A DNA stretch of 50,517 nt from a virus, in IMG/VR virus record IMGVR_UViG_3300044737_000122, positions 1 to 50,517 of that record. One strand, given 5' to 3'. The notes under the pieces were generated by a model that made no database searches, was not told the origin of the DNA, and saw only the letters and a program-made list of their open reading frames with translations. Each line of letters starts with the position of its first letter. Within the stretch, counting starts at the first letter, position 1. Below are positions 10,432 to 50,517 of this stretch, one piece after another. The translations under genes and the position numbers were made by a program.

Positions 10432-10434
10432 ACG

Positions 10435-10911: not shown

Positions 10912-10914
10912 AAA

Positions 10915-12872: not shown

Positions 12873-12972
12873 CTAACCCGGTGTGGATAGTGGCCGGGCC
12901 GGAGCACTGTCCAAAACTGCATTGGAGTGATAGTTAGCGGGGACAACTGCGGCGGCAGACAAGAGGTTGATG

Positions 12973-26684: not shown

Positions 26685-26691
26685 ACATGCG

Positions 26692-35090: not shown

Positions 35091-36716
35091 TTAAAACTGC
35101 TCGTCGAGCAATCCCCCGGTGAGCGTGCTCGAGCGGCGCGCGGGCGGTGGCTCAGGTGGCAGGGCGCTCGTCGATTTGCCAAGCATCCATCGGCGTTGCG
35201 CGAGCATCTTGGCGTCCGGGCAGTGGTCGTCTTCCTTGAGCGGCTTGTCGCTGCCCTTCTGGTAGCGATAGCGCTTGTGCTGCCAGATGGCCTCCTTGAA
35301 CTCCGCGGGGATGCGGTTGAGGCGCCGCGAGAAGTACGCGCGGTAGTTACCGAGCATCTCCTCCTTCTCTGTGCCGAGCCGTTTGCTCTTGTCTTTCTTT
35401 CCGTCCGTGGTGGTGTGCTGGACCGGGCGGCCGAAGGGCACCTCCACGACCGTGCAGCGGAATTGCTCCTTCTCCGGGAGCTCGCGAATGGCCTTGGCGA
35501 TCTCGGCGCGCAGGTCGGCGTTCTCGAAGGGGTGGGAGCCGTCGGCGTACAGCGTCCGCATTTTGTATTTGAGCACGTCGGCCACGATGTCCCGGATAAT
35601 GACGGCGGAGCGCACCTGCGTGTAGATGCCCATTTCGAGCTGGACCAGCACGCCGTCCTTGTGCGCCATCTCAACGTCCCAGGCCGTCATGCCCTGGAAG
35701 CCCCAGTCCAAGCCTCCCGCCACTTCAGCGCCCGGCCGATACTCGTAGCCGGTCAGGTCGGGGATGACGCAGGCATCCACGTCCTCGGGGTCGTTGACCA
35801 TACCCTCTGCCGACGGCCGCAGGCCCATGTACTCCACGTCAAACCAGTCAATCGACGACTTCTCGCGCCAAGCCTGAATGATGTTGTCGACCGGCACCCA
35901 GCCTTCGGGGTCGCCGGTGCGGCCGGTGGCGCGCTTCTTGAGGCCCGCGAGGTCCGGTATCTCGCGGTTGAGCCTCTCGTCGTCCCATATCGCCGGGTCA
36001 AACTCCTTCGTTACGTCGAAGATGTCCCAGGAGAGACGGGTGTAGCCGAGCTCGTCCGCGCGGTCCCACGTCTCCTGGAAGAAGCCGAATATCTTATGAA
36101 AGGTCGAGGTCAGCACCACGAGCGGGTTGTCTGCCGTGTCGACCATCGGGAGCGCGGAGAGGATGATCTCATCTTTGGCCTCGCACGCCTCGTCGATACA
36201 AAGGTCATCGGGGTGAGGGCCGCGTACCTGCTTCTGCGATGCCGCCACGGCGCGGAAGTAATTGCCCTGGTCCGTGCGCGTACGCAGCATGGTGGGCTCC
36301 TTGGGCAGCGCCTCCAGGATCGCGTCGCTGACGAAGATGAACTCGGTAAAGTAGCGGTACACCCCGGTGGCCTGCTCGAGCGAGCCGCCCAGGTTGACGA
36401 TGTTGCGCAGCTTGAGGAACCATCGGACGAAGCCCAATGCGCCGAGCATCTTGCTTTTGCCGCCGCCGCGGGGGCCCTTGATGATGAAGCGGTTGGCGGG
36501 CCGGCCCTGAAGATCCTGCTGGAGCCACAGGCACGCGAATATCAGCCGCAGCTTGCGCGGAAAGAGCATCGACGGGTCGATGAATTTAAGCAGCGATATG
36601 GGCTTCGTGCCGTACCGACGCCGGATGTCCTCGGGACTACTGAGGACTACCTTCTTGAATTTTCGCTGCGCCTCGGAGAGCCTCTGCCTCTGCGATAGCG
36701 GCGGTGAGGATTGCAT
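35091..36716 (-). CDS. Terminase large subunit
   Basis: A 541-residue packaging motor. ATPase: Walker A KGPRGGGKSK (residues ~80 to 89), Walker B LCIDEACEAKDE near 172, then VVLTSTF coupling motif near 200. Nuclease: GLDWGFQGMT near 340 as first acidic motif and YADGSHPFENADLRAE near 390 as second. It cuts and pumps DNA into the prohead through the portal. The start overlaps the end of the small-subunit gene by 80 nt; a later start is possible. Confidence 0.92.
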   Translation of the reverse strand: MQSSPPLSQRQRLSEAQRKFKKVVLSSPEDIRRRYGTKPISLLKFIDPSMLFPRKLRLIFACLWLQQDLQGRPANRFIIKGPRGGGKSKMLGALGFVRWFLKLRNIVNLGGSLEQATGVYRYFTEFIFVSDAILEALPKEPTMLRTRTDQGNYFRAVAASQKQVRGPHPDDLCIDEACEAKDEIILSALPMVDTADNPLVVLTSTFHKIFGFFQETWDRADELGYTRLSWDIFDVTKEFDPAIWDDERLNREIPDLAGLKKRATGRTGDPEGWVPVDNIIQAWREKSSIDWFDVEYMGLRPSAEGMVNDPEDVDACVIPDLTGYEYRPGAEVAGGLDWGFQGMTAWDVEMAHKDGVLVQLEMGIYTQVRSAVIIRDIVADVLKYKMRTLYADGSHPFENADLRAEIAKAIRELPEKEQFRCTVVEVPFGRPVQHTTTDGKKDKSKRLGTEKEEMLGNYRAYFSRRLNRIPAEFKEAIWQHKRYRYQKGSDKPLKEDDHCPDAKMLAQRRWMLGKSTSALPPEPPPARRSSTLTGGLLDEQF

Positions 36717-37342: not shown

Positions 37343-39802
37343 ATGTCTATTACCCGAAACAACCACTACGTCCCGCAATGGTATCAAGCCGGATTTTTTG
37401 AGCCGGGACGTTCAACGCTGGCCTATCTCGACCTGACACCGCCTAAAAAGACTCTCCCAGACGGTCGCGTCATAGTGCAGCGAGGCGTTTGGGATAAGAC
37501 GCCCACTTCAAGGGCCTTTTGCGAAAGGGACCTCTACTCCACGTTCTTCGGCACCACCGTCAACGATGAAATTGAGCGGCGCCTATTTGGCAATATCGAT
37601 GGCCGGGGCTCTAAAGCTGTTAGGGGGTTCGCCGTGGGTGGCGTGCGCGAATGGCATGAGCACTTCCAGACCCTTTTTGAATTTCTTGATGCTCAGAAGC
37701 TTCGCACGCCGAAAGGCCTGGACTGGCTAAAGGCTCGGTACCCCGCTTTATCTCAGAATGAACTTATGTTTGAGATGCAGGGCCTCCGCACGCTGCATTG
37801 CTCGATCTGGGCCGGTGGTGTCCGCGAAATTGTCTCTGCTGAAAAGTCGCACGTAAAGTTCATCATCAGCGACCATCCGGTGACGATGTACAACTACGCT
37901 CTCCCGCCTACGGCGAAGGAATGCGCGTACCCGTTTGATCCCGGAATAGCGTTGAGAGCTTCCCAAACGATTTACCCCCTGGACCGGGATCATTGTTTGA
38001 TCCTCACGAATTTGGAATACGCTAAGGACCCGAACACGAGCGCCCTTCAGAAGAGAACCTTTCCGCGGAATTTCCAACAGTCGCTTGCGCGAACTGACGC
38101 TTTTATTCGCAAACGTAACCTTACCGCTGAGGAGGTTGCGCAAGTCAACTTTGTGATCAAAGCGCGCGCCCGGCGATATCTCGCGGCCGGCCGCAAAGAG
38201 TGGTTTTATCCGGAAAATAGCGTCTCGCAGCCATGGGGTGAACTCCGGAAAGTATTCATCCCTCCGAAAGGCGAGTTGTTTCACTTTGGCGGAGAGATGT
38301 TCGTCAAGTATGCGAGCGGTGACGTTCATTATCAGGACGAGTTCGGCAGAACAGAGAAGCCGCGAGACTTCCTATTAAAGAAAGTGCCGGACAGGCCTCC
38401 GCGTCCTAAGGATGCTTGTGGTTGTGGGTCAGGGAAGCGGTTCAAGGATTGTTGCCAGTCCAAGCCAGAAGCGTTGCGGACGACCTGGACCGAGCGGAGC
38501 ATCCGTGAACGGAACCTTATGCTACGCAACGCGATCGTAAATATCCTAGAGCTTGAGTCGGGAAAGGACTGGGTCCAAATTCGCCGTGAGCTGACCGACG
38601 ACAAGATCAGTGAAATTTACCATCTGTACGAGGGCCTTTGGCCGCTCGAGACTGATTTGCTGGCGCTGTTGCCCAAGCCGGATGGAGCGGCTCGAGCGGT
38701 TTACACGGGCTCGATCCACCCATCATCCATCAACGATTTCGCATTGGCTGCCCCGTTGTACTTTGGGGAGCTGCTCGTGCCGCACCCTTTTATCCACTCC
38801 GGGATAATCAGCAAGGAGTACAGGCCTACTGAACACCCCAAGTCCTACCGTCAGGAATTTCTGAAGGCGGTCATTTGTTTTCTCAACCTAGTGCCGCTCG
38901 TAGAGCTGGGCTTGGTCAACCTCATACCGGACCCGTGCGACTTCGATTACCATCTGCGGAAGGAAATGATGAGCATGGCCAAGGCTCGTGCCGCCACGGT
39001 GCACCTTGATCCCAAGGACGACGCTCGCTTGTACAAACAAATGGAAGAGGATAGCCGGCGCAGCATAATGCTGATGCCGCCCGACGCAATGCGCCGGCAG
39101 CTCCGCGAACTCTCGCCTCATCTGGATGACGAACAGATCGAAGCCACGATGCGCTATAGCCGCCAGGCTATGGAGATGGACCCACTGGCCGTTCTCCAGG
39201 AAGGCTCTCTAGAGGGCGGCAAAGGCGGCGGGCAAATGAACATGTTCAAGCTCGCTCCTAACTTCGAGATGACACTATACTTGGCCAAGGCAACGGGGGC
39301 CTGCATCGTCACCGATAGCCCGCACCGCTGGACCGAGGTTAAGATGGCGATCCGCCAGCGCTTTAAGGCGCCGACACCCGGTCTCGTGCCGTTAGTCACT
39401 GAAATAGAGGGAACGAAGTTCGCTTTTCCGCAAAATGTAGAGGACGTGGTCGCCTGTGCTTTCCAGAATATCGGAGCTGGGTACCCTGACGTATTCCGTG
39501 ACCTCTTTAATTACCTAGTCAAGCTCGAGAGTCGCGATGCTAAGCCGAATCGCGAGGCGCAGCTTGTACGCCGCTTTTCCAAGAGCCATGCCGCGGCCCA
39601 GCGGGCCCTTCATAAGTCGGGCGTTCCCCTAGAATCCGGCCGCATTTCGTGTGTTTTCCCTCCGGGAGGTATACAGGACAACACGGTCAACCGCCTTCTC
39701 TTGATGTCTAGCTCCGAGAGGCATCTGTCCAGCGTACCGATGGCATTTTTCGTCGAGGCGGCGGATGATCTCTCAACTAAAGAAGAACCCAAAGTAACAT
39801 GA
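37343..39802 (+). CDS. DUF4238 protein with internal SEC-C motif, moron
   Basis: An 819-residue protein. It opens RNNHYVPQWYQAGFFEPGRS, the DUF4238 signature (NHYVPQxYLxxF), with ISDHPVTMYN near residue 175; this first half looks like a nuclease-type fold of unknown activity. A SEC-C zinc motif (CGCGSGKRFKDCC) lies near residues 357 to 370; the second half has no recognised domain. It is read against the phage operons, between terminase and early/regulatory genes. DUF4238 genes are frequent in islands; a defence role is inferred from position. No strong SD; ATG at 37343. Confidence 0.65.
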   Translation: MSITRNNHYVPQWYQAGFFEPGRSTLAYLDLTPPKKTLPDGRVIVQRGVWDKTPTSRAFCERDLYSTFFGTTVNDEIERRLFGNIDGRGSKAVRGFAVGGVREWHEHFQTLFEFLDAQKLRTPKGLDWLKARYPALSQNELMFEMQGLRTLHCSIWAGGVREIVSAEKSHVKFIISDHPVTMYNYALPPTAKECAYPFDPGIALRASQTIYPLDRDHCLILTNLEYAKDPNTSALQKRTFPRNFQQSLARTDAFIRKRNLTAEEVAQVNFVIKARARRYLAAGRKEWFYPENSVSQPWGELRKVFIPPKGELFHFGGEMFVKYASGDVHYQDEFGRTEKPRDFLLKKVPDRPPRPKDACGCGSGKRFKDCCQSKPEALRTTWTERSIRERNLMLRNAIVNILELESGKDWVQIRRELTDDKISEIYHLYEGLWPLETDLLALLPKPDGAARAVYTGSIHPSSINDFALAAPLYFGELLVPHPFIHSGIISKEYRPTEHPKSYRQEFLKAVICFLNLVPLVELGLVNLIPDPCDFDYHLRKEMMSMAKARAATVHLDPKDDARLYKQMEEDSRRSIMLMPPDAMRRQLRELSPHLDDEQIEATMRYSRQAMEMDPLAVLQEGSLEGGKGGGQMNMFKLAPNFEMTLYLAKATGACIVTDSPHRWTEVKMAIRQRFKAPTPGLVPLVTEIEGTKFAFPQNVEDVVACAFQNIGAGYPDVFRDLFNYLVKLESRDAKPNREAQLVRRFSKSHAAAQRALHKSGVPLESGRISCVFPPGGIQDNTVNRLLLMSSSERHLSSVPMAFFVEAADDLSTKEEPKVT

Positions 39803-40939: not shown

Positions 40940-41251
40940 CTATAAGCCGAGCCGCTGCACGTCGTCAACCGAGCGGACCACGTGGTACAGCGCGCCGGCT
41001 GCCCTGGCTGCGAGCGAGAAGCTTTCCTGCTCGAGAGACATGATGCCGCTCTTTCGCTTCACCTCGAGGAAATACGGGCGGCCCTGATACACGAGGATGA
41101 TGTCGGGTGAGCCCTTGGTGCCAAATCTGACAAAGCTGCCTTTCTTGGTCTCGAACGCTCCTGTGTTGTTGCGCCACCAAAAATGCCGGCGGTAGGTGAG
41201 GTAATCGCAGACCGCCTTCTGTATCTCCCTCTCAAGGGGCTCGGGCGTCAT
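40940..41251 (-). CDS. VRR-NUC nuclease
   Basis: A 103-residue PD-(D/E)xK nuclease: TGAFETKKGSFVRFGTKGSP then DIILVYQGRPYFLEVKRKSG (D, E and K of the core) and EQESFSLAARAAGALYHVVR. VRR-NUC proteins act on branched or 3'-flap DNA; phage versions are stand-alone. The ATG at 41251 (MTPEPLEREIQKAV) is preferred; the frame is open further upstream through the terminator. It lies downstream of the ArdC gene and terminator at 41280. Confidence 0.8.
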   Translation of the reverse strand: MTPEPLEREIQKAVCDYLTYRRHFWWRNNTGAFETKKGSFVRFGTKGSPDIILVYQGRPYFLEVKRKSGIMSLEQESFSLAARAAGALYHVVRSVDDVQRLGL

Positions 41252-41279
41252 GCCCTGATTATCCCATGGAAAGAAAGAA

Positions 41280-41317
41280 GCCCGCCGTAGCGAGCCTCTG
41301 GGGTTCGCTGCGGGGGC
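41280..41317 (-). terminator. Leftward terminator after ardC-like gene
   Basis: Stem of about 16 bp (GCCCGCCGTAGCGAGCC with GGTTCGCTGCGGGGGC, few mismatches), loop TCTGG; on the minus strand followed by TTCTTTCTTTCC. Confidence 0.7.
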
Positions 41318-41354
41318 TTTGATATTTATTCGTAGAGCCAAATATTGCTTTTGT

Positions 41355-42227
41355 TCACTCGGCCGCTTCCAACGTTACCACGGGCTCAGAGAACGCCCGC
41401 AAGTAGTCCGTTGCTTTCGAGGCAAGCGAGGCTGCCGTGAGGATGGCCTTGCTGTCGTTCTTGAGTACCTCAAGCCAGTTGGCAACGTAGCCTGCGTGTC
41501 GTAGCTCGCCTTTCACTTCGAGGTACGCGCACGTCATGGCGGCACCCAGCTCCGCTACTAGCTCCTCAAATGCGTACTCCTTCTCCTGGAAGCGGCTCTT
41601 GAGGTCGCGGTTGAGACGGTCCTTCTGGGCTGTCCAGTGGATATGCTCGTGGCCCCATACCGCGTAGATGTTCTCCGGGTTGAGGAATGCGCCCCGCTCA
41701 GGCATCGCGATGATGTCTTTCGAGGGGATGTAGCAGGCTTTGGGTTCGCCCCAGCAGGTCTGTGCTCCGATCGCGACAAAGAACGCTTCGGCCCGCTCGT
41801 CGCGCTCGTGCTCGGGCAAGTCGGGTGGGGGGTCTTTGCTCGCCAACCCGTCGCATTGCGCGACGTTAAAGACGTTGAACTGGCGCATGAAGGGCACCAA
41901 CCGCTCGTCTTCTGTCCCGGCGTTCCTGATCGTCCGATTGACGTAGATAATGCCGGTCGAACGTTCGCCCTTGCGGACCTGCCCACCTGCATCCTGGCAT
42001 TGCTTGTAGGTGAGCCATTCTGCCGAGGCGTACTGCTTCTCCTGCCGCTCACTCCAGAGCATGAGCACGTTGAGTCCGGAGTAGGGCCGTCCTGTCACGG
42101 CGTTGACCGGCATGATGCCGCCGCGCCGGTTGGTCTTCCATGGTTTAAGCCATGGTGGCGGGTTGCCTGCTTCAATCTCGCGGATGATCTCGTTCGTTAC
42201 CCGGTCATAGAGCTCCTGCACGGACAT
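41355..42227 (-). CDS. ArdC-type antirestriction protein with zincin domain
   Basis: A 290-residue protein. The N-terminal DUF1738 (ssDNA-binding) part reads YDRVTNEIIREIEAGNPPPW, PVNAVTGRPYSGLNVLML and GGQVRKGERSTGIIYVNRT; the C-terminal zincin has HEHIH at 193 to 197 and EELVAELGAA at 221 to 230, giving the HExxH plus Glu zinc site. ArdC proteins enter with conjugating DNA and protect ssDNA or block restriction. ATG 42227 has AGGAGG five to ten nt upstream; TACAAT at 42256 is a likely -10. Strong SD contrasts with late genes. Confidence 0.82.
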   Translation of the reverse strand: MSVQELYDRVTNEIIREIEAGNPPPWLKPWKTNRRGGIMPVNAVTGRPYSGLNVLMLWSERQEKQYASAEWLTYKQCQDAGGQVRKGERSTGIIYVNRTIRNAGTEDERLVPFMRQFNVFNVAQCDGLASKDPPPDLPEHERDERAEAFFVAIGAQTCWGEPKACYIPSKDIIAMPERGAFLNPENIYAVWGHEHIHWTAQKDRLNRDLKSRFQEKEYAFEELVAELGAAMTCAYLEVKGELRHAGYVANWLEVLKNDSKAILTAASLASKATDYLRAFSEPVVTLEAAE

Positions 42228-42255
42228 GGAAACCTCCTGTGCTTGTCCGTGCTTA

Positions 42256-42261
42256 ATTGTA
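42256..42261 (-). promoter_or_regulatory. -10 of the ardC-like gene
   Basis: TACAAT on the minus strand preceded by GCGG; 28 nt lie between it and the ATG, room for a leader with SD AGGAGG. A downstream-facing terminator overlaps the region upstream. Confidence 0.4.
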
Positions 42262-42270
42262 CCGCGCAAA

Positions 42271-42293
42271 AAGAAAGGCCCCCGAAGGGGCCC
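42271..42293 (-). terminator. Leftward terminator after the methyltransferase
   Basis: GGCCCC - CGAA-type loop - GGGGCC stem with TTTCTTTTT after it on the minus strand. Ends the methyltransferase transcript before the ardC-like promoter. Confidence 0.8.
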
Positions 42294-42300
42294 GTTGATG

Positions 42301-42918
42301 TTAGGAGCGGGTCGCCGACAGTCGCGACCTAGCAATCGTGATGTACTCTGGATCGCGCTCCACACCGATGTAGCGCCTGCCAAGCTGTTTCGCCGCAACG
42401 GCCGTTGTTCCCGATCCTAGGAACGGATCGAGTATTGTGTCGCCCGGAGATGTGAAGCTGTCGACACACCACTTCATTACCTGGAGTGCTTTCTGAGTCG
42501 GATGAGCTACGCGCTCCTCCCTGCTGTCCCTTACAAATCCCCGCCACCTGCTGTTGAATACTTGGGCTACCTTGTCGAAGGATGTCCATGCAAGCTCGCA
42601 ATCAGCAAAGCATCCCGTAGCAAGACCATCATTTTTCCACCAGACCAACCAGCATCGAGACGAGGGAAGGTAGTGAGAAAAATAGTTGCCGCCCCAAATG
42701 ATCTGTTTGCGACTGACGCGCCGCATTTCGTCAAAGTAATCTTTTGAAGGTATGGCAACGTCCCAAGCTTTGCGAGTGAATTGCCGGCCGCCCCTACCGA
42801 TAAACCCTTGCCGACCGATGTTAATACCGTAAGGAGGATCGGTGATGACGATTTCTACGCTCTTGTCGGGCATGCGTCTAAGAACGTTAAGACAGTCGTC
42901 TTGAATTATTCTGCTCAT
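42301..42918 (-). CDS. Orphan DNA adenine/N4-cytosine methyltransferase, beta class
   Basis: A 205-residue amino-methyltransferase: catalytic DPPY at 27 to 30 (VITDPPYGI) comes before the SAM-binding DPFLGSGTT at 164 to 172, the beta-class order, with target-recognition region between (WGGNYFSHYLPSSRCWLVWW). HPTQKALQVM is also typical. No restriction enzyme lies beside it, so it probably protects phage DNA or regulates. ATG 42918 is preferred (GGAG eight nt upstream); a 7-bp hairpin can hide that SD. Confidence 0.88.
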   Translation of the reverse strand: MSRIIQDDCLNVLRRMPDKSVEIVITDPPYGINIGRQGFIGRGGRQFTRKAWDVAIPSKDYFDEMRRVSRKQIIWGGNYFSHYLPSSRCWLVWWKNDGLATGCFADCELAWTSFDKVAQVFNSRWRGFVRDSREERVAHPTQKALQVMKWCVDSFTSPGDTILDPFLGSGTTAVAAKQLGRRYIGVERDPEYITIARSRLSATRS

Positions 42919-42923
42919 GTCGA

Positions 42924-42943
42924 GTGCTCCGTTGAAGGAGCAC
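42924..42943 (-). promoter_or_regulatory. Hairpin covering the methyltransferase SD
   Basis: GTGCTCC - GTTGAA - GGAGCAC, 7-bp perfect stem. On the minus-strand mRNA the downstream arm contains GGAG eight nt before the start codon, so folding would reduce initiation. Confidence 0.55.
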
Positions 42944-43066
42944 CCCAACTACAGCCGTTTTTTCAGGTGATCATCGTTCGCTCTGCACCGCTATGTCCGC
43001 ATCCGTTGTTATGCATGGCGCTCTGTTGCTCTATCTTTTTTCATCACGTTTTGTTTCTGTGCGCGC

Positions 43067-43513
43067 ATGATCTACCGGGTGAAAACGCGCAAGGGATATT
43101 GGGAGGAACGCGAGAGCTATCGCGATCCTGTGACGGGCAAGCCGCGCTCTCGCCTCGTCCGCTATCTTGGCAAGCTTGGAGAAATAGACTGGAAGGCCAC
43201 GCTTCAAGGCGACCCCGAGGACCGCGCTATGGCCGCTGCTGAGAGAGCCGCAGAGAAGGCGGGGGCACTAGAGACACGGCCCGAGAGACAGCCTACAGCG
43301 CTTCCTCAGGGCCTCCACTCGGGGCCAGTAGACCCCATGCCAATCGAGAAGGCGCCATCGGCTAATCATCGAGCTGCTCAAAGTGCGCCAGCCGAGCAAG
43401 ATCAGGAAACTGCGCCGGCAGAGCCCGCTGGTCCCGCGCCCGACGAAGCAGCTGCGTCAGAAACTGAGCACGAGCCTGGCGCTGCTCAAGGGTCAGACGC
43501 CTCTTCCTCATAA
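43067..43513 (+). CDS. Hypothetical protein with Ala/Glu/Pro tail
   Basis: A 148-residue protein. Residues 1 to 45 (MIYRVKTRKGYWEERESYRD, SRLVRYLGKLGEIDW) form a small conserved-looking motif (RxRxLxYLGKLGxIDW) known from transposon/plasmid proteins; residues ~60 to 148 are disordered (AAERAAEKAGALETRPERQP). It diverges from the methyltransferase gene. A hairpin at 43537 follows. No clear SD. Confidence 0.5.
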   Translation: MIYRVKTRKGYWEERESYRDPVTGKPRSRLVRYLGKLGEIDWKATLQGDPEDRAMAAAERAAEKAGALETRPERQPTALPQGLHSGPVDPMPIEKAPSANHRAAQSAPAEQDQETAPAEPAGPAPDEAAASETEHEPGAAQGSDASSS

Positions 43514-43536
43514 CTCAATGCTATCACGCAAAAGAA

Positions 43537-43558
43537 CAGGCCCCGATTCCGGGGCCTG
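43537..43558 (-). terminator. Terminator between convergent genes
   Basis: CAGGCCCC - 6 nt - GGGGCCTG stem; minus strand continues TTCTTTTGC. It ends the leftward primase-like transcript and, less well, the rightward gene at 43067. Confidence 0.7.
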
Positions 43559-43569
43559 GTCGAGCATAT

Positions 43570-44163
43570 TCAGGCTCGTTTCTGAAGCGGCACGACGTTC
43601 GTGGGGAAAAATCCTTTCGGGGGACAGCGTGCCTCTGTCACTCCGATGTAGCCGAGCAGGGTGCCGGTCTCGTCGCGGATCGGTACTGCTACCGTGCCGC
43701 GCATGATGCCCTTGCCGGCGTAGCCGATGCCGAGCTTGGACGCTTCTTCCGGGTCGAAGCCAGCCGCCACAACAGCGGGGTTCTCCGCCTCAAGATAATC
43801 GAGGGGCTTCAAACCTTGCTGCTGCGGGGCTGGGGGATCGTCGGGAACTGTAACTGGTGCACGGTGCACTCGTTCACTAGTTACATTCCCGATCCGAAAT
43901 GCGGCCTCAATTTGTCGGCCGGCGTCTGCCAGCGAACATTTCTGTGTATGACCCCACAATGCGATGAGGTCGCCGCCAATGCCCTGCGAAAAGCAATAAA
44001 ACAGACCCTTCGCCGGGGTGATGACCAAGGCGCGCGGGCCTCCGGTCTGACAAGCGGGACACGGCCCGCGAAACTGAGCGCCGCTCTTGGTGAGCTGAAG
44101 GCCGAGCGACTGCGCGGCTTCCTCGATCGTCACGCGCTCCTTGATCACTTGGAAATCCGCCAT
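43570..44163 (-). CDS. CHC2-type primase-like protein, truncated core
   Basis: A 197-residue protein. Zinc region: CPACQTGG (C35, C38) and YCFSQGIGGDLIALW (C57), a DnaG CHC2 pattern in which the usual fourth ligand is Gln60, so zinc binding may be lost. The C-terminal ~60 residues (LGIGYAGKGIMRGTVAVPIR, ETGTLLGYIGVTEARCPPKG) match the start of the DnaG catalytic domain but the TOPRIM part is absent. It may act as a primase-associated or regulatory protein. ATG 44163 has GGAGG eight nt upstream. Confidence 0.6.
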   Translation of the reverse strand: MADFQVIKERVTIEEAAQSLGLQLTKSGAQFRGPCPACQTGGPRALVITPAKGLFYCFSQGIGGDLIALWGHTQKCSLADAGRQIEAAFRIGNVTSERVHRAPVTVPDDPPAPQQQGLKPLDYLEAENPAVVAAGFDPEEASKLGIGYAGKGIMRGTVAVPIRDETGTLLGYIGVTEARCPPKGFFPTNVVPLQKRA

Positions 44164-44191
44164 GTGGACAGCCTCCGTTTGTACGTCCACA
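44163..44191. promoter_or_regulatory. Inverted repeat around the primase-like start
   Basis: TGTGGAC - 15 nt - GTCCACA; the SD GGAGG lies in the loop and one arm touches the start codon. Possible operator or translation control. Confidence 0.45.
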
Positions 44192-44344
44192 GGCAATGAT
44201 ACCATGGGGTCGGAAGCGGTTCGGATGTGGGCGCGGTTGCTTGGAACCCAGAGACTGCGACGAACACTTCCACAAAGTTTCGACTCTCTCTACCTGGTCC
44301 AAGCACCGGCCCCTGCATCTGAGCGGGAGAAAGAGAGTTTTCAA

Positions 44345-44557
44345 ATGGCACAGGGCAATGCGCCTGTCGCAAAGTTCCGGGTAGGCTATGTCACGGCAGC
44401 AGTGTGGCAGAACGACAAGCACTTCAACGTCGTGCTGTCCAAAGCCTACAAGGATGGCGAGGAGTGGAAGGATACCGACCAGCTCGGCCACGGCGACCTA
44501 CTTAACGCCGCCAAGGTCCTGGAGCGCGCCGAAGGCTGGATTGCCGAACAGTTCTGA
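44345..44557 (+). CDS. Small conserved hypothetical, 70 residues
   Basis: MAQGNAPVAKFRVGYVTAAV then HFNVVLSKAYKDGEEWKDTD, ending LERAEGWIAEQF. I recognise this pattern (KFRxGxVxAxxW ... YKDGxEWKxTxxLxxxDLxxAxxVLxxAxxWI) as a frequent mobile-element/plasmid family (DUF of unknown role). It reads rightward, SD-like GGGAG upstream, and ends into a strong terminator at 44571. Confidence 0.75.
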   Translation: MAQGNAPVAKFRVGYVTAAVWQNDKHFNVVLSKAYKDGEEWKDTDQLGHGDLLNAAKVLERAEGWIAEQF

Positions 44558-44570
44558 ACGCGGAATGAGA

Positions 44571-44593
44571 AAACCCGGCATCACGCCGGGTTT
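44571..44593. terminator. Bidirectional terminator
   Basis: AAACCCGGC - ATCAC - GCCGGGTTT, perfect 9-bp stem, followed on the + strand by CCTTCTT and preceded by GAGAA on the minus side. Ends the gene at 44345; overlaps the last codons of the opposing small gene. Confidence 0.8.
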
Positions 44594-44733
44594 CCTTCTT
44601 GCTCAGGCTTTGGTCTGCGGCTCCACGTCTTTCTTACGGGCGCGCCGCCGAGGATCTTCTCAAGCTCCGCCTCGCTCTCCTTGATGTTCTTCACCAGCTC
44701 GTTGATGCGGTCTACTTTCGCTTGGTCGTACAT
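44581..44733 (-). CDS. Small coiled-coil protein
   Basis: A 50-residue peptide, MYDQAKVDRINELVKNIKES..., with a coiled coil (EAELEKILGG) and basic end. It overlaps the 3' end of the Replic_Relax gene by 74 nt in another frame, and its stop lies within the terminator stem. Similar short coiled peptides end plasmid operons; support is moderate. Confidence 0.4.
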   Translation of the reverse strand: MYDQAKVDRINELVKNIKESEAELEKILGGAPVRKTWSRRPKPEQEGNPA

Positions 44734-45583
44734 TAAGCATCTCCATGAGGTTGAGCGCGCCGTCTGCACCCTGCCACGGCACGAACAGATTTGTTGTCGG
44801 CAGGGGTTTTGGATGAATGGTCGTCGCGTAGAACCGCTTGCTGTACGTGCCCGCAAAGAGGTCGAGCATGCTCTGTATGTCGGGGCGCGTGGTGATGAAC
44901 AGCACGCTCGGGGGCACGCGGAAGCCAAAATGGGTTTCGTAGGTCCTTGAGGAAAAATACTCGCGGTAGCGCTCCACCTTGCTCTTGAGGCTTTGGCGGG
45001 CGTTCTGGCTGATAACGGGCTCGGTGCCGCGGTCTACCTCGATATGGAGGAACAAGGTCTGCTCCCCGTCCGTAAAGCCTCTGGTGATGTCAGGCTCTAG
45101 GGTCGGGCTCATGGAGATGCGGAACGGGTAGGGCGCTTTTCTGGTGCTCTCTGGGCAGCGATCGTCGGCCAGGATGGCATCCGGCCCTTTCACCTGGATG
45201 GGGGCGCGGTCGAGCAAAAACTCAATCTCGCTTCGCAGGAGCCGGTGCTTGTAGTGATCATTGCCGCCCTGGGTGTAGATGTCGCCGTGCTTGGCCAACA
45301 GGGCGCGACCGCGCGGCTTTAGCTCGAAGACGTAAAAGGCGTTGCGGGGGATGTAGGCCAGCTTCTCCTCGCGCGGCAGGTCGGGCAGACCGATGTAGTG
45401 ACCCCTCGCAAGCAGCGTGAGCGCCTTGCGCGTGCCCTGGTACTTTCCGAGCGCGTGATAGATGAAGCTCGACGGCAGGAGGTCGTAGCGGGCCAAGAGC
45501 TTGAGGATATCCAGCTCACGCGCTGAACCGGCCGTGTCGTAGGTCGGCGTGCCGATAGTTTTATACGCTGAGTGTCGCTCCAT
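44660..45583 (-). CDS. Replic_Relax-like protein
   Basis: A 307-residue protein. N-terminal winged-helix region (ELDILKLLARYDLLPSSFIY; GKYQGTRKALTLLARGHYI) is followed by a PD-(D/E)xK-like core: TLEPDITRGF, LFLHIEVDRGTEPV and a Lys in QSLKSKVERYREYF. This is the pattern of the replication-relaxation family of plasmids and conjugative elements, thought to nick or relax DNA. It directly follows the TraD/VirD4-like ATPase gene. The ATG at 45583 is used; a 12-bp palindrome covers it. The C-terminal ~25 residues lose family sense where the frame overlaps the next gene. Confidence 0.65.
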   Translation of the reverse strand: MERHSAYKTIGTPTYDTAGSARELDILKLLARYDLLPSSFIYHALGKYQGTRKALTLLARGHYIGLPDLPREEKLAYIPRNAFYVFELKPRGRALLAKHGDIYTQGGNDHYKHRLLRSEIEFLLDRAPIQVKGPDAILADDRCPESTRKAPYPFRISMSPTLEPDITRGFTDGEQTLFLHIEVDRGTEPVISQNARQSLKSKVERYREYFSSRTYETHFGFRVPPSVLFITTRPDIQSMLDLFAGTYSKRFYATTIHPKPLPTTNLFVPWQGADGALNLMEMLNVRPSESRPHQRAGEEHQGERGGA

Positions 45584-45589
45584 ATGGAG
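45578..45589. promoter_or_regulatory. 12-bp palindrome over the Replic_Relax start
   Basis: CTCCATATGGAG, perfect palindrome, spans the start codon of the Replic_Relax-like gene. Possible autoregulatory operator. Confidence 0.5.
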
Positions 45590-45603
45590 TGTATACGCGC
45601 AGG

Positions 45604-45656
45604 CCCGCAAAAAAGGTACGTGCGGGAAGGGGCGCAGAGTAAGCGCTGTTGCGCTT
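45604..45656. other. Two hairpins between ATPase and Replic_Relax genes
   Basis: CCCGC - 13 nt - GCGGG (45604..45626) and AAGCGC - TGTT - GCGCTT (45641..45656). They lie in the 86-nt gap between two co-directional genes and are not followed by a U-run. A structured leader or nick-site element is possible. Confidence 0.5.
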
Positions 45657-45669
45657 CCACTAAACTATA

Positions 45670-47715
45670 TCACCGATTTTTTTCAGTTAAGGGTAGATCG
45701 TCGTTCTCAACCGTGCGGGAAGCAGGCTTGTAGGGATGGACAAACGCGAGCCGCTCGCGCATCACAGCGTAGTCATCTCGTTCCATTTGCGGCTCGTGGT
45801 CGAATTCAAGTTTTTTCACCGGCAGGTCGAACTCTTTTTTTCGGGTCGTTATATGCACAGACCCTACATCGTGGCAGCGCGACTTGATGCCAGCTTGCTC
45901 GAGTGCCGCGACCACGCCGGGGATAAAACCGCCCGATTGCTTGAGATGGTGGTGCGCTATGGTCATGCCGATCTTGGATGAGCGGGCCTTCTCCAAGATG
46001 TCGGCAAATATCTCGTCGCGTGCGATGTAGTCCTGGGCCTCGTCTATCACTACAAACACAGGCGGGCCGGGATGGTCCGTGCGTTCGCTGGCGAGTTGGT
46101 CTATGAGCGCAATGACGAGACGGCCTAGGAGCGCGCCGGCTTCTTTGCCAAACGCGCGTCGGCTCGTGTCCACGAGAAGCACCTTTCCGCCGCGCTGTAT
46201 CTCGCGCATGTCCAGCGCGAAGCTGTCGGCATTGAGCATTTTCAGGAACGGCCCGTCGCGGAACTCCGCCAAAAAATCCATCAATCTCTGCTCGATGCCG
46301 CCGCTGGTAAGCGCCGCCACGCCCCTGCGGGTGTGCAAAAACCACTTGCGGGTTACGTCGTCCAGGCGGTCAGGATTGAGACCCGCCGGAAGCTTGTCTT
46401 TGGGCGTTAGCATCAACTCCGAGAGACTGTAGAGCGTAGGGTTAGTCATGCTGTAGGCGGCGTTCACGTAATGGCGCAGAACGCCCATTTGCAATTTGCT
46501 CGCCTCAGTCAGTCCGGCAAGCATGTACACAAGCAGCGGCACGCCTTGCGCTTTGGGCAGCTTGAACGGGTTGAGCGGAAAAATTGCATCGGCATCAATG
46601 AGGATGAGGTGGCCGTCTAGAGGTTGACCTGCGGCAAAATCCTTGAGCGTGCGCATCTCGCGGACCAGACGTTTGCTGTCTACCACGAAAAGCGAGCATT
46701 CCTCCCGAGCTACGCGGGCGAGGTCATCCTTGATGAAGTGCCTCAAAAATGTAGTTTTGCCCGAGCCGTTATCGCCCATGCACCAATGATGGGTAAAGCG
46801 CATCTCGTCGGTAAAAGGCTGGAAGGGGATGGCGATGTTAAACAGCTCTCGGAACGCTGGGATCAGATAGAGCTCCAAAACGTCCTCGCCTTTATACTGC
46901 ACGGGCCAAACTCCCGTCACGGCGTATCCGGCGCCGTATTTTTCGCGGACCGTCTTGCATAAGCCGCGTGCTTTCAGTTCTGGCGTGCAGAACGGCGCGA
47001 GCACATCAACGATAGTTTGGCCAACAGGGATAAGCTGCGAGGCCGGTACCTTCCATGGCGTCGGCTGCTCACTAGGCCGCGGTAGATGGCGGAGAAACGC
47101 GAGGATGCTCTGCGTAAGCGCCTTGGTAATGAGGTCGTAGTCGAAGAGCTGTGAAGCCAACGCAAGGGGCCGTAGGTACTCAATATCCATATCAATATTG
47201 AAACCGAGCGGGATGGGCTTGTCGGGCTCGTAGGGTTGGAGCGGTTCAGCCGGCCTGAAGTCCGGTTCCGTATCTAAGTAAAAGAACAGCGCACGAAAAC
47301 GATGGAGGGTCTCCGGGTCAAAGACGAAGCCTTCCCGTAGAATCGCGAGCTCAATATCAGGTCGCCAGTCGGCAAAGACTTCCTCCGGCATTGGCAAAGG
47401 GCGGGCCGCTATATCGTACAGACGCTTGTATTCGTCATATGTCTCTCGCGTCTGTCGGTAGATGTCGGCGATGTATGCAGCGCGCTCGTCTGCCGTTTCT
47501 TTGGCCTTCGTGTGATGAATGTAGAATGCGTATGCTATTAAACCGGCGCCTACCAATATGCCTGATACAAGCACGATCCGCATGAGGGAGCCGAAAAACA
47601 CCTCAATAGAAGCGATGTTTTTGTCGACTGCCATTGAGGCGATAGGGATCAGGATGCAGATCACCACCGCCCAGCCGAGCAGCTTCTCGCTCGCTGGTAA
47701 ATTCCCGTCGGCCAC
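45670..47715 (-). CDS. Membrane-anchored TraD/VirD4-like ATPase
   Basis: A 681-residue protein. Two N-terminal transmembrane helices (about residues 12 to 30 and 44 to 65) are followed by a long linker and a FtsK/VirD4 type ATPase: Walker A MGDNGSGKTTF near 312 to 322, Walker B VFVVIDEAQDY near 552 to 562, and ARSSKIGMTIAHHHLKQSGG as arginine/sensor region. Such proteins couple DNA to a conjugation channel or pump it across the envelope. No VirB-type channel genes are seen. It lies 23 nt after a P-loop-less ATPase-like gene, and before Replic_Relax. Packaging-motor assistance is an alternative. Confidence 0.75.
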   Translation of the reverse strand: MADGNLPASEKLLGWAVVICILIPIASMAVDKNIASIEVFFGSLMRIVLVSGILVGAGLIAYAFYIHHTKAKETADERAAYIADIYRQTRETYDEYKRLYDIAARPLPMPEEVFADWRPDIELAILREGFVFDPETLHRFRALFFYLDTEPDFRPAEPLQPYEPDKPIPLGFNIDMDIEYLRPLALASQLFDYDLITKALTQSILAFLRHLPRPSEQPTPWKVPASQLIPVGQTIVDVLAPFCTPELKARGLCKTVREKYGAGYAVTGVWPVQYKGEDVLELYLIPAFRELFNIAIPFQPFTDEMRFTHHWCMGDNGSGKTTFLRHFIKDDLARVAREECSLFVVDSKRLVREMRTLKDFAAGQPLDGHLILIDADAIFPLNPFKLPKAQGVPLLVYMLAGLTEASKLQMGVLRHYVNAAYSMTNPTLYSLSELMLTPKDKLPAGLNPDRLDDVTRKWFLHTRRGVAALTSGGIEQRLMDFLAEFRDGPFLKMLNADSFALDMREIQRGGKVLLVDTSRRAFGKEAGALLGRLVIALIDQLASERTDHPGPPVFVVIDEAQDYIARDEIFADILEKARSSKIGMTIAHHHLKQSGGFIPGVVAALEQAGIKSRCHDVGSVHITTRKKEFDLPVKKLEFDHEPQMERDDYAVMRERLAFVHPYKPASRTVENDDLPLTEKNR

Positions 47716-47738
47716 GCTCCCCTCCCGTTTCGCGCACT

Positions 47739-48509
47739 CTAGCTGGCCATCCTGTCCTGGACAAATTCCGTGTGGCCGATCACGCCGGGAACCAGGCCGG
47801 CGTACTGCGCTAGGACCAGCGCATCCTCATGGGAGCATCCCGCGCCCTCCTTGTGCTCAATCTGCAAGACGGCCTGCCTAAGCCGGGGCGGGAGCTCGGC
47901 CAAAAAGTTAACGGCGACGGCGAGGCGGCTCTGGCGGATGAAGAGCGTGTGTAAAGGACACAGATAAAAGCCACCGTCAGAGACAACGATTTGTCCTTTA
48001 TGCTGCTGCATCAAAAACAGAGCCAGCGCGAGCGCCTGCTTGTCTCCCAACTGGGCACGGTCAATCCGCGCTACCACCGTGCCGTCGAAATCGAATTGCC
48101 TACCACTACAGAAGATGTCCTTGAGCGTCGGAAAAAAGAGCAGGGCGTCCACTGCCGCCAACGCTTCGGCTTGAGCGGGGTCTTTGGGGTTGCCTGTGAG
48201 CTTGTCCAAGCGTGTAGTGGTAACGAGCATGCGGGCGAGGGCGCGTTTGCCGTTACGCACGGTAAGGGTGCTCTCTCCGCCCGGATCGGCAGCGTAGATG
48301 ATGTCAGCGACGGCCACGGCGCGCTCGGGCGTGATCCCGATAAGGGGATTGAAGTGGTGCTTGTGCGGGTCGAACACGCGAACCCGCTTCGTAAGAAAAA
48401 TGTCCGGCGTGTCGCCGATGTAGAGAAAAGGTGGAGCCGCGTGGTCGCGGAGCCAGTCGGTAGTGTCGGCGATGCCGAGGTGTAATGAGTTCATGCGGTC
48501 AGCGGCCAT
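47739..48509 (-). CDS. ATPase-like protein without P-loop
   Basis: A 256-residue protein. Segments VRVFDPHKHHFNPLIGITPE, VVARIDRAQLGDKQALALAL and HTLFIRQSRLAVAVNFLAEL follow the order of strands in VirD4/HerA type ATPases, and the end (LPPRLRQAVLQIEHKEGAGC) looks like the C-terminal region of the following ATPase, but no GxxxxGK(T/S) is present. It may be a structural partner of the TraD-like protein, or a decayed copy. ATG 48509 (MAADRM) or 48494; frame open further upstream. TATAAT at 48583 gives a possible promoter. Confidence 0.55.
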   Translation of the reverse strand: MAADRMNSLHLGIADTTDWLRDHAAPPFLYIGDTPDIFLTKRVRVFDPHKHHFNPLIGITPERAVAVADIIYAADPGGESTLTVRNGKRALARMLVTTTRLDKLTGNPKDPAQAEALAAVDALLFFPTLKDIFCSGRQFDFDGTVVARIDRAQLGDKQALALALFLMQQHKGQIVVSDGGFYLCPLHTLFIRQSRLAVAVNFLAELPPRLRQAVLQIEHKEGAGCSHEDALVLAQYAGLVPGVIGHTEFVQDRMAS

Positions 48510-48582
48510 GTGCCACGTCGGGCCTCGCGCTTCCAAGGGTTGGCGTGGGGACCGTGACCGCAAATAAGATCGGTCCGCTGTA

Positions 48583-48588
48583 ATTATA
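48583..48588 (-). promoter_or_regulatory. Consensus -10 TATAAT before the ATPase-like gene
   Basis: TATAAT on the minus strand (in CGATATAATTACAGC), about 74 nt before ATG 48509. No good -35 at 17 nt; TTGCGC lies 21 nt upstream. Confidence 0.45.
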
Positions 48589-48720
48589 TCGTGGAATAGT
48601 CGCGCTCGAGCGCAACAGGCCGCCGTACTGGGCAGTAGTGGCGGCGTTGCTGTTCGTTGACGGCTGCGAAACAGCCAATATGTCGGACGGTGTACCGCTG
48701 GTCTGATTGTAGCATGCCGA

Positions 48721-48755
48721 CGCACAAGCCGCCGCGTGATGCGGCGGCTTGTGCG
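48721..48755. repeat. Perfect 15-bp hairpin
   Basis: CGCACAAGCCGCCGC - GTGAT - GCGGCGGCTTGTGCG. Strongest stem in the window. A-rich sequence follows on the + strand, so no terminator U-run exists on either strand. Confidence 0.85.
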
Positions 48756-48797
48756 AAAAAGAAAGGCCACGAGCTCTCGATACTCACGACCACGGCA

Positions 48798-48810
48798 ATT
48801 GTAACACAAT
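48798..48810. promoter_or_regulatory. 13-bp operator-like palindrome
   Basis: ATTGT-AAC-ACAAT, a perfect 5-bp dyad inside the structured block; plausible repressor or excisionase site. Confidence 0.4.
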
Positions 48811-48830
48811 GGCTGTAGTGGGTAATTGTG

Positions 48831-48980
48831 CCCGCCAACTGTCCGTCGTGAGCGTAAGCGACGACCCAATACGCTGAGGCCAAGCAAAATTTTTTGCGCC
48901 GTGCCCTTAAGCCCGCGTGTCTATTAGACCAAGGGTCAGGGTATTGGGTCGTGGCTGAGCCACGCGGACAGTTGTGCGGG
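48831..48980. repeat. 150-bp imperfect inverted repeat with nested hairpins
   Basis: Arm 1 is 48831..48872 and arm 2 is 48941..48980. Outer blocks CCCGC-CAACTGTCCG pair with CGGACAGTTG-TGCGGG (one extra base), inner blocks CGACCCAATAC pair with GTATTGGGTCG (48862..48872, 48941..48951). Between outer and inner blocks each arm has its own hairpin: CGTCG...CGACG in arm 1 and CGTGGCT-G-AGCCACG in arm 2. The 68-nt centre contains GCAAAA-TT-TTTTGC. Confidence 0.85.
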
Positions 48981-49055
48981 AAATGTAAGCCCTGTCGCGT
49001 TTTATCGCGCAGGTATTAATCGCAACGTAGATGAGAGAGCGGATGCGACACTATA

Positions 49056-49084
49056 AACCCCGGTCTCCGTGAGGAGCCGGGGTT
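49056..49084 (-). terminator. Hairpin downstream of the excisionase-like gene
   Basis: AACCCCGG - 13 nt including CTCC/GGAG - CCGGGGTT. Positioned 35 nt after the stop of the leftward gene at 49119; the U-run is weak, so termination is probable rather than certain. Confidence 0.6.
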
Positions 49085-49118
49085 CTAGTAACGGCCCACC
49101 TGGTTAGGGGGTGAGGCG

Positions 49119-49295
49119 TTAGCGGGTGGAGATAAGTCTCTCGACTTGCTCTCGCTTGTAGTAGACGCGGGACGCTCGGCCGTTTGGTTTGATAGGCGTG
49201 AGCAGTTCCGCTTTCTCCCATCGCTGGAAGGTAGTGTTGGTAACTTCGACTCCTAGCTTCCGAACATCATTTCGGGTCATCAGTTCTTTCGACAT
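49119..49295 (-). CDS. Excisionase / MerR-type DNA-binding protein
   Basis: A 58-residue helix-turn-helix protein: MSKELMTRNDVRKLGVEVTN, TTFQRWEKAELLTPIKPNGR, then a wing ASRVYYKREQVERLIS. The layout is of winged excisionases (Xis/AlpA/MerR-like) which bend DNA beside integrase genes. ATG 49295 is chosen because GGAG lies 8 nt upstream; 49301 is possible. It is 100 nt downstream of the integrase and just upstream of the structured block, where its binding sites might lie. Confidence 0.75.
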   Translation of the reverse strand: MSKELMTRNDVRKLGVEVTNTTFQRWEKAELLTPIKPNGRASRVYYKREQVERLISTR

Positions 49296-49395
49296 CGGCA
49301 TGGCTCCATGAGTTGGAGGCAGGCCGTGTCGCAAGTTCTAGCGACGAGTGGAGGTTAGCGATGTGGTGGCGTCAGTCAATGCCACAAAGCGCACT

Positions 49396-50517
49396 CTAGG
49401 CGGCTTCCCTGAGAGCCGGCGCAACGAGCGACTGTAGGAACATCTCCCAATTCTCCATCGCCTCGCGCATTTCGGGCTGATAGGTCCACATATCGTATAC
49501 CTCCTCCATTTCGGTTCGGGAGGAAATGTGGTTGACCAAGCGCTCGGCAATGTCCGGACGGACCTTTAGGCGCCCGAGGTTGGTGCGGAACGTGCGGCGC
49601 AAGTCGTGCAGGGTCCAGGGCGCAATGCGGGCGATCTTGTCGAGCGCCTTTTTGCACTTGCTCCACCCGCTAAACGGTAACTCCGAGCCTACGGCTTGGA
49701 ACAGTAGCTCGCTGGGACGGTCCTGCCGTATCCGCCGGGCGAGTATTTCCCGCGCCATCGGTCCCACGGGGAACGTGTGTTCCAAGTGATTCTTGGTGAG
49801 TTCCCCCGGTAGGGTGACGCACTGTTGATTGTCCGAATAGTAGCGGTCGGCGAGGGCGGCGGTCTCGCCGCGCCGCTGCCCCATCAAGATCAGCAACCGG
49901 ACGATCTCGGGGAAGTCGCCCTCCATCTCAAACGTCGCCAGCCAGACCTTGCGCAGTTCCTCGTCGGTCAGGACGCGCTTGCGGCGCTTTGGTTTGGCAA
50001 GCTGGATACCCTCGAGCGGGTTGACCGCGATGTACTGCCGGCGTTTTGCCCACCGGAAAAAGGTCCGGGACACGGCCTGCGCGTGGTGAAGTTCGCTCGG
50101 CGTGCCGACCAACTCGTCAGTGATAGCGGTGAGCATATGGGTGGTGATGCCGCTCATCCGCTTGTTTGCAAGCACGGGCAGGTAATGCCGCTCCAAAATG
50201 TTTTTGTAGCCCCGCTGGGTGCTAGGCTTCTTGGTGGCGATATGGGTCTTCTTAAACGCCGTATACGCCTCCTCAAACGACACCCGGCCGCTGGACGGCT
50301 GTGGGGTCGCAAGCAGGCGTTTCGCCTCTGTACGTGCATCCTGGAGCGTCACAGCGGGATAGTGGCCGATGCTTATGAGCTGGCGATCGGCGCCCCGCAT
50401 GACGATCCAAGTGCGACGGTTCTTGCCAACTCGGATGCCGAACGCAGGCGTCGTCCGGTCAAAGTATTTGCCGGGCGCCAGTGAACGGACGGTGAGATCG
50501 GTGAGCTTCGTCTGCAA
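49396..50517 (-). CDS. int: Tyrosine integrase (partial at window end)
   Basis: At least 373 residues; the frame reaches the window edge, starting there with TTG, so the true start is probably a few codons beyond. N-terminal DUF4102-type region (TDLTVRSLAPGKYFDRTTPA; IGHYPAVTLQDARTEAK), core-binding helices (~80 to 165) and a catalytic domain with R215 (GQRRGE), K242, H304/R307 (LHDLRRTF), H330 and Y341 (EVYDMWTY). It catalyses site-specific integration and excision with the neighbouring Xis-like protein. The spacing of H330 and Y341 is normal. Its usual target is a tRNA 3' end; no attR is in the window. Confidence 0.9.
   Translation of the reverse strand: MQTKLTDLTVRSLAPGKYFDRTTPAFGIRVGKNRRTWIVMRGADRQLISIGHYPAVTLQDARTEAKRLLATPQPSSGRVSFEEAYTAFKKTHIATKKPSTQRGYKNILERHYLPVLANKRMSGITTHMLTAITDELVGTPSELHHAQAVSRTFFRWAKRRQYIAVNPLEGIQLAKPKRRKRVLTDEELRKVWLATFEMEGDFPEIVRLLILMGQRRGETAALADRYYSDNQQCVTLPGELTKNHLEHTFPVGPMAREILARRIRQDRPSELLFQAVGSELPFSGWSKCKKALDKIARIAPWTLHDLRRTFRTNLGRLKVRPDIAERLVNHISSRTEMEEVYDMWTYQPEMREAMENWEMFLQSLVAPALREAA

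Follow-up and report, generated by a model that had tools for sequence, protein, structure and literature searches.

A relaxase- and coupling-protein-like gene block beside the integrase of tailed phages, with a leader RNA and a nested inverted repeat

The gene block analysed here lies in a virus record of 50,517 nucleotides (IMG/VR IMGVR_UViG_3300044737_000122, positions 1 to 50,517; hereafter the window) and comprises a tyrosine integrase, an ATPase-like protein that we call PARTNER, a VirD4-like ATPase, a Replic_Relax protein and a CHC2 zinc-finger protein. Its closest described relatives are mobilization modules. The MOBC modules of CloDF13 (MobB/MobC) and pAD1 (TraX) are alike in their relaxase of PD-(D/E)XK type, preceded in TraX by an N-terminal winged helix (PMC12857230, PMC7431656), and CloDF13 also encodes its own membrane-anchored coupling protein (PMC7431656). 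Streptococcal integrative mobilizable elements (IMEs) of IME_Class_8 carry the same two protein families beside an integrase, PF13814 being scored there as a MobC (MOBC) relaxase that accompanies a VirD4 coupling protein (PMC5357655). In contrast to the MOBC modules, which we compared by description of MobC and TraX only, the present block belongs to tailed phages and includes a pseudo-ATPase partner, a CHC2 protein, a leader RNA and a nested inverted repeat, with nicking as a predicted activity; unlike IME_Class_8, with its serine integrase and lack of capsid genes, the window combines a tyrosine integrase with a full set of phage structural genes.

Related combinations have also been reported outside these modules. 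The tailed Bacillus siphoviruses Novomoskovsk, Bolokhovo and Izhevsk encode Replic_Relax, the first two together with an FtsK/SpoIIIE protein, which their authors read as remnants of plasmid functions (PMC9658697, PMC7685451); the view of a first-pass annotation of the window, that such families are not known as a group from siphoviruses, was for this reason too strong (PMC9658697). Thermus ICEth1, the element of TdtA, unites an integrase, a nuclease, a membrane ATPase and a PF01555 methyltransferase without a type IV secretion system (T4SS) (PMC5365140), but its proteins are of HerA/NurA families, it has no capsid genes, and, unlike the present system, it is a demonstrated DNA donor. P1-like phage-plasmids, for their part, are almost always devoid of relaxase and origin of transfer (oriT) (PMC10879196). 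A relaxase and coupling protein beside an integrase in IMEs, and Replic_Relax with an FtsK-like protein in Bacillus siphoviruses, are thus already known. Neither the five-gene phage block nor its pseudo-ATPase, leader RNA or nested repeat turned up in our search of the open-access literature, and tblastn against 50,697 phage records returned no match of the window ATPase, PARTNER or the Replic_Relax of a related phage.

A gene block shared by tailed phages

Profile searches identified the window as a tailed phage through TerL, a Mu-like portal, a protease, a major head protein and a tape measure. The genes of interest sit between the terminase (35091-36716) and the integrase (49396-50517), as the first-pass annotation had placed them, and every gene that it named is a real open reading frame (ORF) at or near its proposed position. 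The block itself occupies the minus strand from 43570 to 50517:

49396 to 50517, minus strand: tyrosine integrase (Arm-DNA-bind_3, Phage_integrase; phrog_1 2.5e-48), first gene of the block, adjoining the module in all block phages
47739 to 48494, minus strand: PARTNER, best read as a pseudo-ATPase, with a predicted VirB4/VirD4 fold (AlphaFold, Foldseek, residue comparison)
45670 to 47715, minus strand: VirD4/TraG-like membrane-anchored P-loop ATPase of 681 residues (motifs, membrane segments, profiles of relatives)
44660 to 45583, minus strand: Replic_Relax protein, a MOBC-type relaxase candidate (PF13814, phrog_9381, AlphaFold, Foldseek, residues)
43570 to 44163, minus strand: CHC2 zinc finger/TOPRIM-N-like protein (partial primase), the conserved last gene (PF01807, Zn_ribbon_DnaG, 1.2e-8; phrog_47 DNA primase 5.6e-15)

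Relatives were gathered by tblastn and pattern scans from IMG/VR contigs (G and L labels), plasmids and one Mycolicibacterium genome, and gene order was then mapped with iterated profiles over the fetched contigs. The order integrase, PARTNER, VirD4-like ATPase, Replic_Relax, CHC2 is present in the window and, as the first-pass annotation had suggested looking for, in ten other IMG/VR contigs (G001, G002, G004, G009, L041, L044, L048, L051, L052, L054), whose proteins are approximately 20-60% identical to those of the window; the integrase is inverted in G004 and L041, and Replic_Relax was not detected in the short, 11.7-kb contig L051. A second architecture, seen in G005 and G006, places the integrase followed by the ATPase, Replic_Relax and CHC2 at one end and PARTNER elsewhere, while in G011-G014 and G016 the ATPase and Replic_Relax adjoin each other away from PARTNER. 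In total, seven contigs carry the ATPase-Replic_Relax pair with PARTNER elsewhere, the module occurs in about 18 phages, and an ATPase was detected in every PARTNER contig except G007 and G015, possibly fragments.

Profiles of the window terminase, portal and head proteins found no match in the other module contigs, so that the block is common to phages with different structural genes. Because its order persists among phages with no detectable likeness in terminase, portal or head proteins, we regard it as serving a core function rather than as an occasional extra; and because the same order recurs across phage contigs, the block is a phage core module and not an unrelated integrative and conjugative element inserted into the prophage, a possibility that the first-pass annotation had raised and that was rejected. 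The integrase, relaxase-like and coupling-like genes of the IME definition (integrase, relaxase and optional coupling protein, no capsid genes) are all present in the window, which nevertheless falls outside that definition since it carries full phage structural genes.

Two further genes had been grouped with the set, and profile matches confirmed the identity of both, as they did for the primase-like protein:

42301 to 42948, minus strand: N4/N6 DNA methyltransferase (PF01555, N6_N4_Mtase, 6.9e-26), not conserved with the block
41355 to 42230, minus strand: ArdC-like protein (ArdcN 4.3e-39, MPTase-PolyVal 5.7e-44)

Neither is a conserved companion of the block, ArdC being found in only three of the examined contigs (the window, G001 and G002), and both were rejected as core members by their distribution over contigs. 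For the CHC2 gene, the longest ORF starts at 44205, and the start that best fits the relatives is 44163. Between Replic_Relax and CHC2, a small ORF opposite the module strand recurs at 44345-44557 (+) in the window, where it has no Pfam match, at 33354-33587 (+) in G001, 34171-34395 (+) in G002 and 26588-26764 (-) in G004.

Some relatives of the ATPase and Replic_Relax occur in other settings. G008 (IMGVR_UViG_2898945296_000003) has the pair beside two integrases and capsid/terminase-like genes, and looks like two elements side by side, a mobilizable element and a capsid-forming satellite. In Mycolicibacterium sphagni (L006 8097-12402) and in L017 (7358-11603), a VirD4-like ATPase, a Replic_Relax-like protein and a methyltransferase stand in a row with recombinase genes nearby.

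Predicted motor, partner and relaxase

The window ATPase carries two N-terminal hydrophobic segments (residues 12-30 and 47-65), a Walker A motif GDNGSGKT at 314-321 and a Walker B motif VVIDEAQ with D558/E559, the motifs having been placed earlier near 312 and 552. GK[T/S], DE and R578 (Arg578) are invariant among 12 ATPase relatives. N-terminal membrane segments combined with RecA-like Walker A/B motifs, features by which type IV coupling proteins (T4CPs) are recognised, are present in the ATPases of the window, G001, G002, G004, G008 and Sulfitobacter; the ATPase ORFs of G005, G006 and G009 show no membrane segment; in G005, hydrophobic segments are encoded by a separate ORF upstream. In profile searches, ATPase relatives match the T4CP domains TrwB_AAD_bind (1.2e-8), TraG-D_C (3.5e-6) and T4SS-DNA_transf (4e-4) and also DUF87 (1.3e-5), but the window protein's own P-loop and profile matches all remain below threshold, including those of the curated T4CP profiles. 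Since the relatives match DUF87 besides T4CP domains, "VirD4-like" is used here as a description and not as a claim of membership.

PARTNER had been described as an ATPase-like protein without a P-loop and with a start at 48509; its conserved start is 48494, and the remainder of that description was borne out. A canonical P-loop is present in 0/19 PARTNER sequences, which sets them apart from VirB4 as a functional P-loop ATPase, although a shortened G-x(1-3)-K-[ST] is retained in 10 of the 19. Across the 19 sequences the Walker-B Asp is invariant and the following Glu is replaced (D-[FG]-G-F-Y). The AlphaFold model has a predicted local distance difference test score (pLDDT) of 93.6, and Foldseek matched it to the VirB4 structure 4ag5 (E 4.1e-4, prob 1.00), the best 40 PDB matches all being T4SS ATPases (VirB4, TrwB, Cag-beta). 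The predicted likeness extends over the ATPase-domain fold (TM by query length about 0.45-0.58), whereas PARTNER differs from VirB4 and VirD4 in having neither Walker A nor the Walker-B Glu and in standing alone at about 250 residues. Comparison with the VirD4-like profile by hhalign gave a weak match (probability 1.1, E 0.047), and for this reason the relationship of the two proteins is argued from the fold. Overall, PARTNER is best read as a pseudo-ATPase.

The identity of the Replic_Relax protein, proposed earlier, held up in a profile search of 44660-45583, which scored PF13814 above its cut-off (1.4e-7, 32.3 bits against 25.3); this cut-off was passed in 5/10 contigs tested. The window protein also matches phrog_9381, labelled "replication initiation by nicking" (2e-9). 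Its AlphaFold model (pLDDT 80.5) predicts a winged helix and a PD-(D/E)XK-like nuclease, with FokI as the top PDB match in Foldseek (E 5.9e-3, probability 0.89), MarR winged helices next in rank, and the Shedu, Card1 and Cap4 nucleases as weak matches. H113, D165, E182 and E188 are invariant in 13 Replic_Relax sequences. With moderate confidence, the protein fits a winged helix-turn-helix (wHTH) followed by a PD-(D/E)XK fold with conserved acidic residues, as in MOBC relaxases (PMC12857230). The kinship to conjugation families that the first-pass annotation had perceived is therefore upheld by the T4CP domains of the ATPase relatives, the scoring of Replic_Relax as MobC and the predicted VirB4/VirD4-like fold of PARTNER.

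Leader RNA and nested inverted repeat

The DNA between PARTNER and the integrase holds three non-coding features:

48494 to 48562, minus strand: structured leader RNA (helices P1, P2, P3) without a Shine-Dalgarno sequence, ending at the PARTNER start codon
48583 to 48588, minus strand: TATAAT, the probable -10 box of the PARTNER operon
48836 to 48974, strand not assigned: nested inverted repeat with outer arms CAACTGTCCG/CGGACAGTTG and inner arms CGACCCAATAC/GTATTGGGTCG within 48862-48951

The leader, built by manual alignment and two covariance models (R1 and R2), forms three helices directly upstream of PARTNER, its 3' end lying 0-12 nt before the start codon, and contains an internal loop of the CUCUA/AAAUA type (CCCGA in the window). 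Model R2, of which the window is a seed member (E 4e-6), gave 20 matches at E up to 1 in 567 kb, all upstream of PARTNER genes; those outside the seed include L053 (1.7e-7), L012 (9.5e-7), L055 (1e-5) and, weakly, L041, L014, L016 and L048. Model R1 covers the leaders of G001 and G002, and with both models combined the leader is present in 20/20 PARTNER contigs and was not found in searched loci without PARTNER. In the model alignment, which is model-fitted and leans to the model, 91.6% of cells pair, compared with 74.2 +/- 1.7 after shuffling and no more than 55% in slid alignments; 11/15 pairs are changed on both sides, and the covariation score is 0.508 versus 0.227 in this model-fitted alignment. 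A plain descriptor scan was near chance genome-wide (75 matches versus 53 in one control), and specificity was for that reason judged by the covariance models only. Rfam at gathering thresholds found only a tRNA in the window, and under permissive settings the leader region of three related loci likewise remained without an Rfam match. The leader is a new structured RNA with strong covariation that is absent from Rfam. In most of 18 phages, a TAnAAT-like box precedes the leader stem by approximately 26-31 nt; a promoter consensus scan that also required a -35 box found none. In L012 (contig G005), an HNH_3 endonuclease gene (9435-10004) sits exactly between leader and PARTNER, resembling a homing insertion.

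The nested repeat lies in the integrase-PARTNER interval of 11/11 phages with the block architecture; in phages of the second architecture, none was found ahead of PARTNER. Its inner arms measure 10-21 nt (often near CACGACCCAATG) and enclose around 50-100 nt, a second, outer pair being present in nine phages; arm sequences vary between phages yet remain complementary. Besides 48836-48974 in the window, the repeat occupies L004 2335-2463, L005 1610-1807, L048 5226-5364 and L052 7698-7890, with perfect arms of up to 21 nt. The fold z-score is -8.9 in the window and -4.9 to -14.8 over nine members, and the strand opposite the operon folds better in 11/11, which hints at an RNA on that (+) strand, although base composition may also explain it. 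The repeat is a candidate for either an origin (a nick site or single-strand origin) or, on the + strand, a structured RNA. Crossover probably takes place elsewhere, because in integrated forms the repeat lies intact inside the prophage, on the inner side of the integrase; an attP (phage attachment site) reading is unlikely on the same grounds, though the repeat may be an accessory site. A search of the window for oriT-like direct repeats gave nothing convincing beyond the inverted repeat, and a genome-wide structure scan in coarse steps did not clearly single out the leader or the nested repeat. Between the two, a hairpin followed by a T-run (48765-48791, minus strand), with TACAAT-like boxes around it, possibly marks a short terminated RNA.

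Possible roles of the block and its surroundings

The phages probably process their own DNA with conjugation-type machinery, because about 18 phages, very different from one another, share the relaxase/pump set as a conserved core component. Our preferred reading, to which we give a probability of roughly 0.4, is that the leader RNA, PARTNER, the VirD4-like ATPase, Replic_Relax and CHC2 form a relaxosome-type module whose nicking and pumping of phage DNA would initiate replication once the genome has been excised. The excised circular genome would be nicked by Replic_Relax at a site near the nested inverted repeat; a VirD4-like ring would move or strip the nicked strand, with PARTNER, in a dose set by the leader RNA, serving as its inactive subunit or as a regulator; and the displaced strand would be primed with help of the CHC2 protein, so that nick-initiated (rolling-circle-like) replication might feed the terminase. 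We counted in favour of replication the position between integrase and terminase, the CHC2/primase-like protein that is always next in the block, the lack of a DnaB_C match in 17 module phages tested, the phrog_9381 label, the predicted wHTH and PD-(D/E)XK-like fold of Replic_Relax, and the nested repeat beside the operon on the integrase's inner side. A relaxase that doubles as replication initiator is also established in mobile elements, as for MobT of ICEBs1 (PMC5357655). Several points weigh against this reading. The pair need not initiate replication on plasmids, because NZ_CP081110 (repA/repB) and NZ_AP019788 (replication initiation proteins) carry it along with separate replication genes; the phages have other recombination genes (in the window SSB, AAA_24 and a HerA-like ATPase); and the membrane anchor of several ATPases would be more natural for export than for replication, although the ORFs of G005, G006 and G009 have no such segment.

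The same plasmids and T4CP-type domains would suit mobilization, in which the excised prophage would behave as an element of CloDF13 or IME_Class_8 type and its own relaxase and coupling protein would deliver a nicked strand to a helper's channel, allowing virion-free spread. IME_Class_8 has been described as consisting of VirD4, a PF13814/MobC relaxase and an integrase (PMC5357655); the mobilizable plasmid CloDF13 encodes a MOBC relaxase and a coupling protein of its own, the latter with an essential membrane domain (PMC7431656); and ArdC with the methyltransferase would suit entry into a new cell. PLSDB labels of "non-mobilizable" were rejected as evidence, since the mobilizable CloDF13 bears the same label. 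The earlier statement that a VirB channel is missing agrees with our searches as far as VirB4 is concerned: the mating-pair ATPase (PF03135) by which T4SS-bearing conjugative elements are recognised was found in 0/15 and 0/5, with a control search positive in 1/14 genomes; VirB4 was found in none of the 17 phage contigs and neither of the two plasmids searched, nor in the Mycolicibacterium genome of L006. This speaks against mobilization, as do the ATPase ORFs of three phages that have no membrane segment and the fact that a helper-dependent extra is not expected as a core block in so many phages. To our knowledge, a CHC2 gene, a pseudo-ATPase and a leader RNA are not known from MOBC modules, which we count on the same side. 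Core conservation, position and CHC2 favour replication, and gene kinship, membrane anchors and plasmid relatives favour mobilization, the main rival, which we consider somewhat unlikely. Of the conjugation-like cassette that the first-pass annotation had proposed, the protein families stand, but the position between integrase and terminase, the absent DnaB_C and CHC2 point at least equally to DNA replication. The bolder proposal that these are widespread, undescribed temperate tailed phages with two routes of spread, by virions and by conjugation-like strand transfer using their own relaxase, a coupling motor with a dedicated dead twin subunit and their own origin, with regulation by a leader RNA of a new class, appears decidedly unlikely.

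Two other uses of a nuclease and a pump were weighed and appear highly improbable. In one, a membrane pump would expel phage or host DNA without a type IV channel, as TdtA of ICEth1 does in transjugation; ICEth1, a DNA donor, encodes an integrase, a nuclease, an FtsK/HerA-type ATPase located in the membrane and a PF01555 methyltransferase (PMC5365140), and analogous genes (recombinase, nuclease-like Replic_Relax, pump and PF01555-type methyltransferase) are present in the window and the Mycolicibacterium locus L006, but conservation of the phage block does not extend to the methyltransferase, and the HerA-like TdtA and its NurA-like nuclease belong to different families. The other, immunity or superinfection exclusion by a nuclease-translocase, draws on the resemblance of a nuclease fold plus ring ATPase to HerA-nuclease defence pairs and on the weak structural likeness of Replic_Relax to Shedu, Card1 and Cap4; its slim chance reflects the core position of the block, its synteny with integrase and CHC2, and ATPase relatives whose matches to T4CP families equal or exceed those to HerA.

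Two smaller genes lie near the integrase and the terminase, respectively:

49119 to 49334, minus strand: small MerR-type helix-turn-helix protein, probably an excisionase or regulator (PF13411 7.7e-5; phrog_66 excisionase 2e-5)
40940 to 41341, minus strand: VRR-NUC-like nuclease near the terminase (phrog_93 endonuclease 1.2e-17), also in G001 and G006

Elsewhere in the window, a protein with a Shedu SduA C-terminal domain (12967-13845, plus strand; PF14082 1.9e-21), on the strand opposite most phage genes, is likely a defence gene, and an 819-residue DUF4238 protein (37343-39802, plus strand), on the opposite strand beside the terminase, is probably a moron or defence gene. A second pump-like ATPase (DUF87/HerA, Zot-like) is encoded at 8836-12666 on the minus strand, with SSB and an AAA_24 ATPase nearby, in a separate operon for recombination or replication; G005 encodes a close relative of this pump-like ATPase.

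Mobilizable elements are recognised by their combination of relaxase and coupling protein, a signature that here forms, in modified shape, a core block of many tailed phages. The pseudo-ATPase twin offers a handle on the regulation of such ring motors, and the nested inverted repeat provides a concrete candidate for an origin. Such a block makes the boundary between conjugation and phage biology less sharp, and whether it serves replication, transfer or both can be put to a direct test.

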